DNA of 64,000 nucleotides from Candidatus Blochmanniella pennsylvanica str. BPEN (GTDB lineage: Bacteria; Pseudomonadota; Gammaproteobacteria; Enterobacterales; Enterobacteriaceae): contig NC_007292.1 of assembly GCF_000011745.1 (NCBI RefSeq), positions 372,001 through 436,000 on the forward strand. The letters run 5' to 3'. The notes beneath the pieces are model-generated. The model did no database searches. It was given only the letters and a program-made list of their open reading frames with translations, and was not told the origin of the DNA. Position 1 is the stretch's first letter. Each line of letters begins with the position of its first letter. Made by a program: the position numbers and the translations under genes. Positions 37,122 to 42,691 of this stretch are shown here, piece by piece.

Positions 37122-37498
37122 TATATGTAAATAACATATACGCATATGCCATGTACATTACTAATAATATTAGTAGCTATATTACCTATATTATGGTAAT
37201 AGTAAGTGAGACATGATTAATATTGTTTTTATTATATCCAAAATGGATAATGTAATCGCTTCTTACTTTTATCTTATTTCACTTTTTAGATAAAATTAAG
37301 TAATATTTTATTATAATATATTTTTTAAAAACTACATGTTATTAAAAGATTATTTTGTAAGAACTACCTTTTATAACTGTTATGTGTGTACGATTATGTT
37401 ATCTTAGGAATTGAATTACTTTCGTAATAATAAAGATTATCTATGATAACAACACATTGTTATGCCCTTTATACAATATTTAATTTGAATTAATTAGT
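37122..37498. other. Spacer between sucD and tolQ
   Basis: In E. coli the mng, cydAB and ybgC genes lie here; all are missing without readable remnants. A small palindrome (37159-37175, TACTAATA/TATTAGTA) and an ATTACC/GGTAAT hairpin follow sucD by 38-80 bp and might end the suc transcript, but neither has a T-run. Confidence 0.45.
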
Positions 37499-38248
37499 AT
37501 GAATATTTTTGACTTATTTTTGGAAACTAATATTTTAGTACAAATTAGCATATTCATATTAATTGGATTTTCTGTTTTATCTTGGAGTATTATCTTCCAT
37601 CGTATCTTCGTACTAAGTTCAGCACAGAGAAAATTAAAAGTATTTGAAAACGAATTTTGGTCTGGAATAGATTTATCTAGTTTATATCAAAAAGCTGCAG
37701 CTCATCGTAATAAATTAAATGGAGCTGAACAAATTTTTTATGTAGGTTTTAAGGAATTTTCTAAGTTATATCAAACAAAACATTGTTCACCTGAAACAAT
37801 GATGTCTAGAACACTGGATAGTATGCATACTGCAATAAATACAGAATTAAAATCGTTAGAAGATTATATTCCATTAATAGGTACAATCGGATCCATTAGT
37901 CCATATCTTGGCTTATTTGGAACCGTATTGGGGATTATACACGTTTTTATAGAATTAGGTAAAACAACGGCGACTAACAATGTCGCCACTCAGATGATTC
38001 ATATGCAAATTGTTGCACCAGGTATTGCTGAATCATTAATTTCTACAGCAATTGGTTTGTTTGTAGCGATTCCAGCGGTTATAGCATTTAATTACTTAAC
38101 TACACAAATAAACAATATGGATCAAGATTATCACAACTTTATAGAAGAATTTATTACGATTCTATATCATCAAATTTTTTTTAATATTGATTCTGCGCTA
38201 AACAAGGAAAATCAATATGAAGAGAAAGCGTATCAGAAACACGATTAA
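37499..38248 (+). CDS. tolQ: TolQ, inner-membrane proton-channel subunit of Tol-Pal
   Basis: TolQ with TolR forms the proton-driven motor that energises TolA for outer-membrane constriction. The 249 residues (E. coli 230) have three membrane segments: about 12-32, 130-155 and 170-195, with GTIGSISPYLGLFGTV and the third-helix VAPGIAESLISTAIGLF.AIPAV. Just before VAPGIAE there is an extra segment of about eight residues (KTTATNNV region) compared with E. coli. The gene end overlaps tolR by 32 bp. Confidence 0.95.
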   Translation: MNIFDLFLETNILVQISIFILIGFSVLSWSIIFHRIFVLSSAQRKLKVFENEFWSGIDLSSLYQKAAAHRNKLNGAEQIFYVGFKEFSKLYQTKHCSPETMMSRTLDSMHTAINTELKSLEDYIPLIGTIGSISPYLGLFGTVLGIIHVFIELGKTTATNNVATQMIHMQIVAPGIAESLISTAIGLFVAIPAVIAFNYLTTQINNMDQDYHNFIEEFITILYHQIFFNIDSALNKENQYEEKAYQKHD

Positions 38249-38642
38249 GTCTGATATTAATATCATACCGTTTTTAGATATATTATTAGTTCTTTTAATG
38301 ATCTTTATGTTGATACCATCTAAATGGATACAAAGCTTTGAAGTAAATTTGCCAAATAGCCCAGTAACACCAAACATTATCAACAATGAAAAACTTATAA
38401 TTACTATTGAAATTTTAGGAATGGGATTCTATAATCTCATTATTAATACTAAACATGTAGAGAAAGTGCGTTTAGACCAAATTTCATCAGAAATAAGTCA
38501 TCAAACACACATCGCTCCTAATATAACGTGCTTGATCGCTGCTTCAAAAACTGTAGAATACGACGAAATAATTAAAGTATTGAATTTGTTAAATAAGATC
38601 GGTATAAATTCAATTGGAATGATAACAAATCCTTCCGTTTGA
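38217..38642 (+). CDS. tolR: TolR, Tol-Pal motor subunit
   Basis: This bitopic partner of TolQ is 141 residues (E. coli 142). The single membrane helix (about 17-37) carries INIIPFLDILLVLL with the proton-relay aspartate. The periplasmic domain ends YDEIIKVLNLL..IGI.SIGMIT, matching the E. coli end. It starts within tolQ. Confidence 0.95.
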   Translation: MKRKRIRNTIKSDINIIPFLDILLVLLMIFMLIPSKWIQSFEVNLPNSPVTPNIINNEKLIITIEILGMGFYNLIINTKHVEKVRLDQISSEISHQTHIAPNITCLIAASKTVEYDEIIKVLNLLNKIGINSIGMITNPSV

Positions 38643-38687: not shown

Positions 38688-39872
38688 TTGTTTAATAGAT
38701 ATTACAAAAAATTTAGATCTGCTGTTATGATATCAATCATTGTACATGTGATCGTCTCTTTATTGCTATATAAACATATAATAAAAAAACAACAACAATA
38801 CACTGCTAAAATAGCTAATAACAAAAATTCAATTAATACCTTCATTCACAACTCTAACCCGAAAAAAGAAAAAAACAACAACATAAAAGATCAATCAAAT
38901 CGATTCAAAATAACAGAAGCACAGCCTCCATTGGCAGGACCAACAGCGCCCAACACCCCTAAAAAGAAAAGTCAAGATCAATCAAATCGATTCAAAATAA
39001 CAGAAGCACAGCCTCCATTGGCAGGACCAACAGCGCCCAACACCCCTAAAAAGAAAAGTCAAGATCAATCAAATCGATTCAAAATAACAGAAGCACAGCC
39101 TCCATTGGCAGGACCAACAGCGCCCAACACCCCTAAAAAGAAAAGTCAAGATCAATCAAATCGATTCAAAATAACAGAAGCACAGCCTCCATTGGCAGGA
39201 CCAACAGCGCCCAACACCCCTAAAAAGAAAAGTCAAGATCAATCAAATCGATTCAAAATAACAGAAGCACAGCCTCCATTGGCAGGACCAACAGCGCCCA
39301 ACACCCCTAAAAAGAAAAGTCAAGATCAATCAAATCGATTCAAAATAACAGAAGCACAGCCTCCATTGGCAGGACCAACAGCGCCCAACACCCCTAAAAA
39401 GAAAAGTCAGAATACTATAGAAAAAAATATACTAATACATGATAAATTAAATTATCAATCCCATGACTCTAACGAACTCAATAATTTACTGAATACATTA
39501 ATTAACAAAAAAAAATCTATAGAAAATAACAAAAAATCTAAATTAGACTTGACAACAAAAAAAAATGATAATGAAAATAATATTTCAAACGAAATGATTA
39601 AAAGTAATGAAATTAATATATATAAGCGTATGATCAGCGAATCAATACAACAAAAATTTTATAACTTTTCGTATTATGTTGGTAAACAATGCAATCTACG
39701 CATCAAATTAGCACCTGACGGCACGTTATTATCAGTAACCGCTATATCTGGAGATTACGATTTATGCCAAGCAGCAATTATCGCCGCCAAATTAGCAAAA
39801 ATTCCTAAACCACCAAATTCAGATATTTACGAAATATTTAAAAACACAATATTAAATTTTTCTCCTCAATAA
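38688..39872 (+). CDS. tolA: TolA, Tol-Pal energy-transducing protein with a proline-rich tandem-repeat stalk
   Basis: TolA spans the periplasm and links the TolQR motor to TolB/Pal. The 394 residues have a TTG start, a short cytoplasmic end, one membrane helix (about 13-30), a stalk, and a C-terminal domain (about 305-394) with CNLRIKLAPDGTLL, LCQAAIIAAKLAKIPKPP and the FKNTILNF end, which clearly matches E. coli TolA domain III. The stalk is unlike the E. coli helical alanine/lysine-rich domain II: residues 68-241 are six copies of a 29-residue proline-rich unit. The ATG at codon 14 is an alternative start but would remove the cytoplasmic anchor and cut into the helix. The coding sequence also contains an A9 run near 39507. 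Confidence 0.93.
   Translation: MFNRYYKKFRSAVMISIIVHVIVSLLLYKHIIKKQQQYTAKIANNKNSINTFIHNSNPKKEKNNNIKDQSNRFKITEAQPPLAGPTAPNTPKKKSQDQSNRFKITEAQPPLAGPTAPNTPKKKSQDQSNRFKITEAQPPLAGPTAPNTPKKKSQDQSNRFKITEAQPPLAGPTAPNTPKKKSQDQSNRFKITEAQPPLAGPTAPNTPKKKSQDQSNRFKITEAQPPLAGPTAPNTPKKKSQNTIEKNILIHDKLNYQSHDSNELNNLLNTLINKKKSIENNKKSKLDLTTKKNDNENNISNEMIKSNEINIYKRMISESIQQKFYNFSYYVGKQCNLRIKLAPDGTLLSVTAISGDYDLCQAAIIAAKLAKIPKPPNSDIYEIFKNTILNFSPQ
38889..39410 (+). repeat. Six tandem copies of an 87-bp unit inside tolA
   Basis: Six head-to-tail copies of 87 bp (29 codons, DQSNRFKITEAQPPLAG through NTPKKKSQ) occupy exactly 522 bp. By eye all copies are identical at the nucleotide level except the last base of the last copy (CAG instead of CAA). 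One unit has 38 G+C of 87 bases, well above its surroundings. The unit length keeps the frame for any copy number. Confidence 0.98.
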
Positions 39873-39949: not shown

Positions 39950-41311
39950 ATGTATTTAATAATTAAAAAAACTCATAAACTACCACACTGGTTGCAAAAA
40001 GTATCTTTATCAATAATGTTAATTATATTTTTATGGAAACCTGCGTTACTTGCAGATATGCATATCGAAATTACATGTGGAGTAAATGCTGCGCACCCCA
40101 TTGCTGTAATACCTTTTACATGTGTTAGTAATCAGTATAACAAATCAATATCAATTGAAGATATAGCATCAATAATAGCCGCGGACTTACGCAATAGCAG
40201 CAAATTCAATACTATTCCCGTAGAATATTTACCACATAAACCCACTAAAGTATCCGATGTTATCCCAACTTTTTGGGAGAAACTGGGTATTAATATTATT
40301 GTATTAGGAACAGTACATATAAACTACGATGAAAGTTACATTATCTCATATCATTTAATAGATACTTCCAGCAACCCTGCATTAATAATATCAGAAAATC
40401 AATATTCAGTAGAAAAAAAATGGCTACGCTATGTAGCCCATGCTATAAGCAATGAAATTTTTGAAAAGTTAACCGGTATAAAAGGTGCATTTTGTACACG
40501 TATTGCTTATGTTTTGCGCATTCATAATGATCACTATCCCTATGAGTTATATATTTCTGATTACGATGGTCATAATCAAATTTCAATTTGCCGCTCGACA
40601 GAACCATTAATGTCTCCGGCTTGGTCTCCAGATGGAAAAAAAATTGCTTATGTTACCTTTGCCTCCGGCCATTCAGAACTTGTTATTCAAGCATTAAACA
40701 CTGGGTTAGTTAATAATATTGTTAGTTTCCCGGGCCATAATGGCGCCCCTTCTTTTTCTCCCGACTGCAAAAAACTAGCTTTTTCTTTATCCAAAACAGG
40801 TAGTTTAAATTTATATATTATGGATTTAGAATCTGGAGAAATTACACAATTAACTAAAAATAGGAACAATAATACCGAACCTAGTTGGTTTCCGGATAAT
40901 CAAAATATAGCCTATACTTCAGACCAAGGAGGCAGTCCACAAATATATAAAATTAATGTTAAAACTACTGAAATTCAAAGATTATCTTGGCTACATACTA
41001 GTAATCAAAATCCAAATGTTAGTTCAGATGGGACATTTATAATAATGGTTAATAGACATCAAGGAAAACAAAATATTGCTAAATTAAATTTATTAACTGG
41101 ACAAGAAGAAATATTAACAGATACACTGTTAGCTGATTCTCCTAGTATAGCGCCCAACAATACTATGGTATTATACAGTAATATTAATAAGGATTTAACA
41201 ACAAAATCCAATTTAGAATTAATCTCTATTGATGGTCATTTTAAAGCTCATATACAAGGAGATCAAGGAGATATAAGATTTCCAACTTGGTCTCCATTAC
41301 ATTTAGAATAA
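39950..41311 (+). CDS. tolB: TolB, periplasmic beta-propeller protein of Tol-Pal
   Basis: TolB binds Pal, Lpp and OmpA-like partners and communicates with TolA. The 453 residues (E. coli 430) begin with a signal peptide (hydrophobic segment about 17-32, cleavage probably after ALLA), then the N-terminal domain (AADLRNS.KFN, ALGI-like region) and a six-bladed propeller with repeated SPDG/SPD and W.PD motifs ([41 protein letters not shown]). The end FPTWSPLHL matches the family. Confidence 0.96.
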
Positions 41312-41370: not shown

Positions 41371-41898
41371 ATGAAACCAAACAATTTTTTTAAACAACTA
41401 ATATCCGCGATAAGTGTGAGCATAGTAATAACTGCATGTTCTTCGTTATCTCAGTACGATACTGTTACTCCTAATCAAAAAAAAGTTGAATTAAATCATT
41501 TTAATCATACTAATATAAAAAATAGTAGAGTAATCGATGAACAAATACAATTAAAAACACAAGAATTAAAATCCAATAATGTTATTTATTTTCCTTTAGA
41601 CCAATATGATATTCCTTCTAATTTTTTTTACTCATTAAACATCCATGCCAATTTTTTATATAATAATCCATTACAACATATTAAAATTGAAGGCCATGCT
41701 GATGAACGTGGTACTCCAGAATACAATATTGCATTGGGTGAACGTCGAGCTAACTCTGTAAAATCATACCTCCAAAGTAAAGGTGTATTATCTGAACAAA
41801 TGTTAACTATATCTTATGGTAAAGAAAAACCAGCTGTATTAGGACAAAACGAAGAAGCTTACTCTAAAAATAGACGCGTTGTATTAATATATAAATAA
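41371..41898 (+). CDS. pal: Pal, peptidoglycan-associated outer-membrane lipoprotein
   Basis: Pal tethers the outer membrane to peptidoglycan and is pulled by the Tol motor. The 175 residues (E. coli 173) have a signal peptide with lipobox VITAC (Cys24-25 region), a linker and the OmpA-like domain. Peptidoglycan-binding residues appear in [22 protein letters not shown] and YGKEKPAV. It should be matured by Lnt and sorted by LolB, both encoded in this window. Confidence 0.97.
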
Positions 41899-41905
41899 TA
41901 TTCAT

Positions 41906-42691
41906 ATGCTTAAGTATATACTATTTCTATGTAAATTAAATATAATCATCATAATGATGATATATTTTAATATTACAAATAATAATATTGTATATGCTAA
42001 AGATGTAAATCATAAGATAGATACCAATCAACGTATTAATCAATTACATCAGATATATGACGCACATAGTCAATGCTTAATTCAAATGCAACAGCAATTA
42101 GCTGAAAATCAACGAGATATTGATATCTTGCGTGGACATATTCAAGATATGCAACATCATATATCAGAAATTATAAATAACCAATCAGCATCACCTCAAC
42201 ATACTAATAATATTTCAAATAAACGTAACATACACTATTCTAACAATATTCCTGATAAATTATCTAGTCACTCAAACATTCAAAGACCAAAAAAAACAAA
42301 TAATGCAATGATAATAGATGTAGATACTGCGTATAAACAAGCAGTATCATTAGTATTAGAAAAAAAACAATATAATCAAGCAATAGAAGCTTTCCAGAAT
42401 TTCATAAGAAACCATCCAGAATCAATTTACCAATCAAATTCGCATTATTGGCTAGGACAGCTTTACTACAACAAAGGCAACAAACATGACGCTGCTCGGC
42501 ATTTTGCATTAGTCGTAAAGAATTATCCTAAATCATTAAAAGCATCAGATGCATTATTAAAAATCGGTATTATCATGCAAGAAACAGAACAAAAAGACAA
42601 AGCCAAAACAATATATAAAAAAGTAGGCAAATTATATCCTAACAGCAATGCAGCAAAACAAGCTCAAAAACGTCTAATACACCTATCATAA
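41906..42691 (+). CDS. cpoB: CpoB (YbgF), periplasmic Tol-Pal/PBP1B coordinator
   Basis: CpoB coordinates outer-membrane constriction with PBP1B. The 261 residues (E. coli 263) have a hydrophobic signal segment (about 8-28), an N-terminal coiled coil (about 42-92, glutamine-rich heptads) and C-terminal TPRs with YKQAVSLVLEKKQYNQAIEAF, SNSHYWLGQLYY and DALLKIG. It is the last gene of the tol block, 8 bp after pal. The linker is rich in asparagine, serine and histidine. Confidence 0.92.
   Translation: MLKYILFLCKLNIIIIMMIYFNITNNNIVYAKDVNHKIDTNQRINQLHQIYDAHSQCLIQMQQQLAENQRDIDILRGHIQDMQHHISEIINNQSASPQHTNNISNKRNIHYSNNIPDKLSSHSNIQRPKKTNNAMIIDVDTAYKQAVSLVLEKKQYNQAIEAFQNFIRNHPESIYQSNSHYWLGQLYYNKGNKHDAARHFALVVKNYPKSLKASDALLKIGIIMQETEQKDKAKTIYKKVGKLYPNSNAAKQAQKRLIHLS

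Follow-up and report, generated by a model that had tools for sequence, protein, structure and literature searches.

TonB carries a proline/lysine segment between its N-terminal anchor and its C-terminal domain, and a related proton-channel pair drives it. Closer to the locus described here is tolA of Escherichia coli, in which the 234 isolates surveyed by Zhou et al. (2012, PMC3477136) carried between 8 and 16 units of a variable tandem repeat in domain II. Stress tolerance shifts with unit number, genes with 2 to 39 repeat copies keep at least partial function, and contraction of the repeat falls to 15% (1.0e-5) when recA is missing and rises 3.3-fold when uvrD is missing (PMC3477136). The tolA array of Blochmannia pennsylvanicus itself is already known, having been published in 2015 by Williams and Wernegreen, whose Table 2 (PMC4389277) gives a 1185-bp gene with an 87-bp unit in 6.0 copies, a score of 1046 and positions 200-722. 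The published values for other species are 87 bp x 6.0 for chromaiodes, 99 x 6.5 for floridanus, 102 x 5.1 for vafer and 81 x 4.4 for turneri, and tolA of obliquus is given as lacking an array (PMC4389277).

The whole stretch of DNA analyzed here, referred to as the window, comprises 64 kb (bases 372001-436000) of the one-contig, 791,654-bp genome of B. pennsylvanicus. Tandem Repeats Finder (TRF) reported in it an 87-bp period with 6.0 copies, 100% matches and a score of 1046 at 38887-39409, which corresponds to positions 200-722 of an ORF starting at 38688, exactly as published. The earlier reading had been right to take the organism for a Blochmannia. Periods and copy numbers obtained with TRF in the genomes taken as vafer, floridanus and turneri also equaled the published ones, the assignment of vafer and turneri itself drawing on these arrays.

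The tolA gene and its cluster

The features of the gene and its neighbors, in window coordinates, are as follows.

37499..38248, + strand: tolQ, proton-channel subunit (TIGR02796 above cut-off, PF01618)
38217..38642, + strand: tolR (PF02472 above cut-off; TIGR02801 at 119.9 bits, slightly below its cut-off of 127.3)
38688..39872, + strand: tolA, 394 aa, TTG start, 1185 bp (ORF; PF06519 and TIGR02794 above cut-off; PMC4389277 Table 2)
38733..38747, + strand: SxxxH (S16, H20; SIIVH, residues 16-20) in the predicted N-terminal membrane helix (translation by eye)
39417..39551, + strand: post-array linker, predicted to be partly helical (residues 244-254 and 261-288; low-confidence model)
39597..39860, + strand: TolA C-terminal domain, residues 304-391 (PF06519)
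39950..41311, + strand: tolB, beta-propeller protein (TIGR02800 above cut-off, PF04052)
41371..41898, + strand: pal, peptidoglycan-associated lipoprotein (ORF with OmpA-like end in translation; gene order as in PMC4389277)

The assignment of the gene to tolA, made earlier from the sequence alone, was borne out by the match of its C-terminal domain to PF06519 (104.4 bits, cut-off 25), by the whole-protein match to TIGR02794 (91.4 bits, cut-off 59.45) and by its position between tolR and tolB, while the match to PRK09510 (152.8 bits) stayed below its cut-off of 213. S16 and H20, read by eye, occupy the place of the Ser/His pair of E. coli TolA. Profile scans of the protein returned TolA families only and no TonB family match; in addition, the TolQ model scored above its cut-off and the ExbB and ExbD models far below theirs. 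The order tolQ-tolR-tolA-tolB-pal is present, with pal recognized from its translation only. Composition and a low-confidence coil model indicated no long Ala/Lys-rich helical domain II of the E. coli kind in B. pennsylvanicus TolA, and such a domain is not demanded by the TolA family models that matched.

Two further observations concern the surroundings of these genes. The ORF following pal (window 41906-42691) has a TPR-like end by eye and is probably ybgF/cpoB, which would complete the Tol-Pal cluster. Immediately 5' of tolQ, at window 37308-37374, lies an AT-rich repeat (32 bp x 2.1, 80%) that ranked second-best in the window.

Geometry of the array

The array lies entirely within the 394-aa ORF (38688-39872).

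38889..39410, + strand: six in-frame 29-codon units DQSNRFKITEAQPPLAGPTAPNTPKKKSQ (TRF limits 38887-39409)
38889..38915, + strand: core of unit 1, codons for DQSNRFKIT (unit comparison)

The core restarts every 87 bp, at 38976, 39063, 39150, 39237 and 39324. Copies 1-5 show no difference from one another, and copy 6 deviates from them solely in its final base (CAA to CAG). The runner-up tandem array within the window scored only 85, compared with 1046 for the array in tolA. In random sequence of equal size and composition, exact repeats would be expected to reach about 18 bp at most, so a chance origin of identical 87-bp units is excluded. No further copy of the unit was found anywhere in the B. 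pennsylvanicus genome, which rules out a mobile or dispersed repeat. Each unit encodes five prolines and three alanines per 29 residues, plus a KKK cluster. TRF and the in-frame comparison of copies thus agree with the sequence-only reading, which had described six near-identical 87-bp repeats making up most of the TolA stalk, with a frame-neutral unit of 29 codons holding five prolines and a lysine cluster; diverged copies were not seen, a single terminal base being all that differs among the six.

Composition of the unit across the genus

The GC content of the B. pennsylvanicus array is 0.436; the window as a whole has 0.293, and tolA outside the array 0.251. Per codon position the unit has values of 0.52, 0.52 and 0.28; the excess falls on positions 1 and 2 and not on position 3, hence the high GC reflects amino-acid content. 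Biased gene conversion was considered as its source and ruled out, since the GC3 of the unit (0.276) resembles that of its neighbors (0.15 to 0.28). The unit had been called GC-richer than its surroundings, which is correct for B. pennsylvanicus but not as a general feature: array and locus GC are 0.364 vs 0.265 in vafer and 0.322 vs 0.259 in turneri, while floridanus shows no excess (0.247 vs 0.255).

Prolines per unit number five in pennsylvanicus, four in turneri, two each in vafer and in the type found in genome G006, and none in floridanus, which rules out proline richness as a conserved trait. The proposed proline-rich, TonB-like stalk therefore holds for B. pennsylvanicus only. The unit lengths found in the genus (81, 87, 90, 99 and 102 bp) are all divisible by three. 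One genome per species was covered; differences in copy number between strains, which the earlier reading expected a frame-neutral unit to allow, are documented for another tolA repeat, that of E. coli (PMC3477136).

Concerted evolution of the copies

To follow the history of the copies we compared the genomes with 29-codon units, G000 (B. pennsylvanicus), G013, G007 and G002, as an unrooted set. Unit positions 31, 57, 58, 59 and 83 set B. pennsylvanicus apart from the remaining three genomes, and all six copies carry its particular base at each of these five positions. Among the six copies compared, no private change was found inside any single one. The right edges of G013, G007 and G004 share the terminal G of copy 6, which accordingly represents a long-standing edge rather than a recent private mutation. 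Had the copies evolved without homogenization since the split from G013, the expectation would be about 10 (rate of the neighboring genes) to 30 (rate of the unit itself) private changes; the probability of observing none is 3e-5 or less by a simple Poisson estimate from this unrooted comparison. With TRF, vafer, floridanus and turneri were likewise each seen to have near-identical copies of a unit of their own, in line with the published table (PMC4389277). These sequence comparisons show a concerted pattern of evolution among the copies of the B. pennsylvanicus array, and the earlier claim that they are kept homogeneous is upheld by the five genome-particular bases in every copy and the zero private internal changes.

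Identity of the copies could also stem from a recent burst, in which one ancestral unit was amplified to six too recently for differences to accumulate, making continuing homogenization unnecessary. Besides the identity itself, the single unit in G002, G004 and G007 and the one core without array in G001 would fit such an event. However, the published table lists 87 bp x 6.0 for chromaiodes as well, together with arrays in vafer, floridanus and turneri (PMC4389277), and G013 has five copies of equal unit length with the identical right edge CAG. The single-copy cases, moreover, are probably collapsed short-read assemblies; G004 (783,921 bp) is taken as ASM2358568v1, which is credited to a study using the MinYS short-read pipeline (PMC10838126). 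A burst following a collapse would in any case be one form of the same turnover, and we regard a recent burst as an unlikely substitute for continuing homogenization.

Reliability of the assemblies at tolA

Several congener assemblies are disturbed at this locus. The contigs of G005, G006 and G013 stop within the tolA array (chance probability about 2e-7), the array copies contain in-frame stops in G006 and G013 and a frame shift in G011, and the assemblies of G002, G004 and G007 contain one copy of the unit. Short-read artefacts probably account for the one-copy genes and the stops, which were therefore set aside. As a side observation, G005, G006 and G013 are single-contig 'complete' genomes cut within the array, and the tolA annotation there is probably split.

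The interrupted contigs, the stops and the frame shift raise the question of whether copy number or identity might be wrong in B. pennsylvanicus, too. We consider an artefact in this genome very improbable, because the published table holds an identical pennsylvanicus array and a similar one for chromaiodes (PMC4389277), PCR gave the size of the vafer array and Sanger reads closed it (PMC3017870), and a second pennsylvanicus assembly differs by only 155 bp genome-wide (791,499 vs 791,654; PMC10838126). The check for assembly collapse or expansion that had been proposed thus came out in two ways: the pennsylvanicus array agrees with the published table, but congener assemblies break or probably collapse at the array. 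Copy numbers at tolA from short-read Blochmannia assemblies are unreliable unless backed by long reads or PCR sizing.

Repair genes and homogenization without RecA

recA (PF00154) was matched in none of the 14 Blochmannia genomes and in all 14 controls; its loss is described as ancestral in Blochmannia in PMC4389277. Homogenization must therefore be RecA-independent. mutS was present in only one of the 14 genomes (G008:C1:212174-214672), taken as turneri, for which PMC4389277 also reports the gene. In B. pennsylvanicus, uvrD is a remnant with stops, and recB is intact in nearly all 14 genomes. Near-full, stop-free uvrD-like frames of 654-675 aa were noted in four genomes (G005:C1:479619-481556, G006:C1:304181-306106, G009:C1:116361-118286 and G011:C1:208956-210881); according to the 2015 paper, no Blochmannia sequenced by then had an intact uvrD (PMC4389277).

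Since the tolA repeat of E. coli still contracts at 1.0e-5 in a recA mutant (PMC3477136), replication slippage without RecA would be sufficient and is probably the route of homogenization. What is new here is modest, namely that homogenization persisted in a lineage without recA: a coding array has remained identical despite the loss of recA, a mostly missing mutS and, in B. pennsylvanicus, a broken uvrD. Blochmannia tolA could thereby serve as a natural setting in which to ask to what extent concerted evolution can be driven by slippage alone.

Structure and proposed function

The array position, copy identity, frame, concerted pattern and absence of recA are directly established. B. pennsylvanicus TolA was modeled with AlphaFold2 from a two-sequence alignment, and the low confidence of the model is itself no proof of disorder. 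The model has a helix at 2-54, renders the array as coil (pLDDT near 30) and places two further helices (244-254 and 261-288) before the C-terminal domain; its mean pLDDT is 40.5. The extended stalk proposed earlier fits this low-confidence coil and is plausible.

Our preferred reading, to which we give a probability of about 0.72, is that the array is a flexible spacer kept uniform by in-frame, RecA-independent slippage. It would encode a largely disordered periplasmic segment joining the N-terminal membrane anchor, with TolQ-TolR as partners, to a C-terminal domain extending in the direction of the outer membrane. The Ala/Lys-rich helix that makes up domain II in E. coli would for the most part be replaced by this segment. 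Copies would be gained and lost in frame through template switching between copies during replication, and this turnover would spread some new mutations array-wide and purge others, so that the array would look uniform in any one lineage but differ from one lineage to the next. Spacer length may be the selected property. G001 and the obliquus-like G012 have no tolA array, from which it follows that a long spacer is not essential across the genus.

Comparison with tolA of other Blochmannia, which the earlier reading had suggested, revealed that arrays differ by lineage and that the core recurs, while the prolines and the high GC are not general. The motif common to the genus is near [DE]Q[SP]NR[FL]K[IL][TS], with unit length and tail varying by lineage. 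Six to nine of the nine core residues are identical in 10 of the 12 compared genomes (G013, G007, G002, G004, G006, G009, G011, vafer, floridanus and G001, the last with one core and no array); the core is weaker in G005 (4/9) and turneri (3/9). Between distant species the tails defy alignment, and within the close clade substitutions have affected the core less often than the tail. In floridanus, the best of five models, likewise weak (mean pLDDT 47.7), places a short strand at each core, the sole part of the array modeled as strands.

These features of the core, its retention beside unalignable tails, its rarer substitutions and its strands in floridanus, would suit a multivalent docking stalk in which DQSNRFKIT is a short putative binding motif, its partner being a porin, for example, or some other envelope component, while the variable tails are only linkers. 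On the other hand, the floridanus strands have a confidence of about 45 to 50 and appear in one of five models, the pennsylvanicus model contains none, the core is weak in turneri and G005, and no partner is known for it. A docking stalk is thus doubtful and somewhat less probable than a recent burst. A more specific version appears slightly less probable still. In it, a conserved strand-forming core, repeated at intervals that differ by lineage, would fasten TolA to a partner in the envelope, and selection and RecA-independent slippage would jointly maintain its uniformity; the stalk would thus contrast with the passive helix of free-living relatives.

Comparison with known systems

Three described cases come closest to the Blochmannia locus. 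The array in the window and that of Williams and Wernegreen (2015) come from the same genome and show no difference in the published table; PMC4389277 gives arrays by length and copy number, and the shared core, the concerted pattern and homogenization without recA are not discussed in its accessible text. TonB and Blochmannia TolA are alike in having a proline/lysine segment between anchor and C-terminal domain, but C-terminal domain and operon identify the latter as TolA, and the number of prolines per unit is not conserved among Blochmannia. The tolA genes of E. coli and Blochmannia share in-frame repeats in the periplasmic TolA stalk. The E. coli units, however, are shorter, Ala-rich, helical and diverged, each being unique, and lie near the end of domain II (PMC3477136), whereas the Blochmannia copies are near-identical; and contraction in E. 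coli is mostly RecA-dependent (PMC3477136), a route that is closed to Blochmannia.
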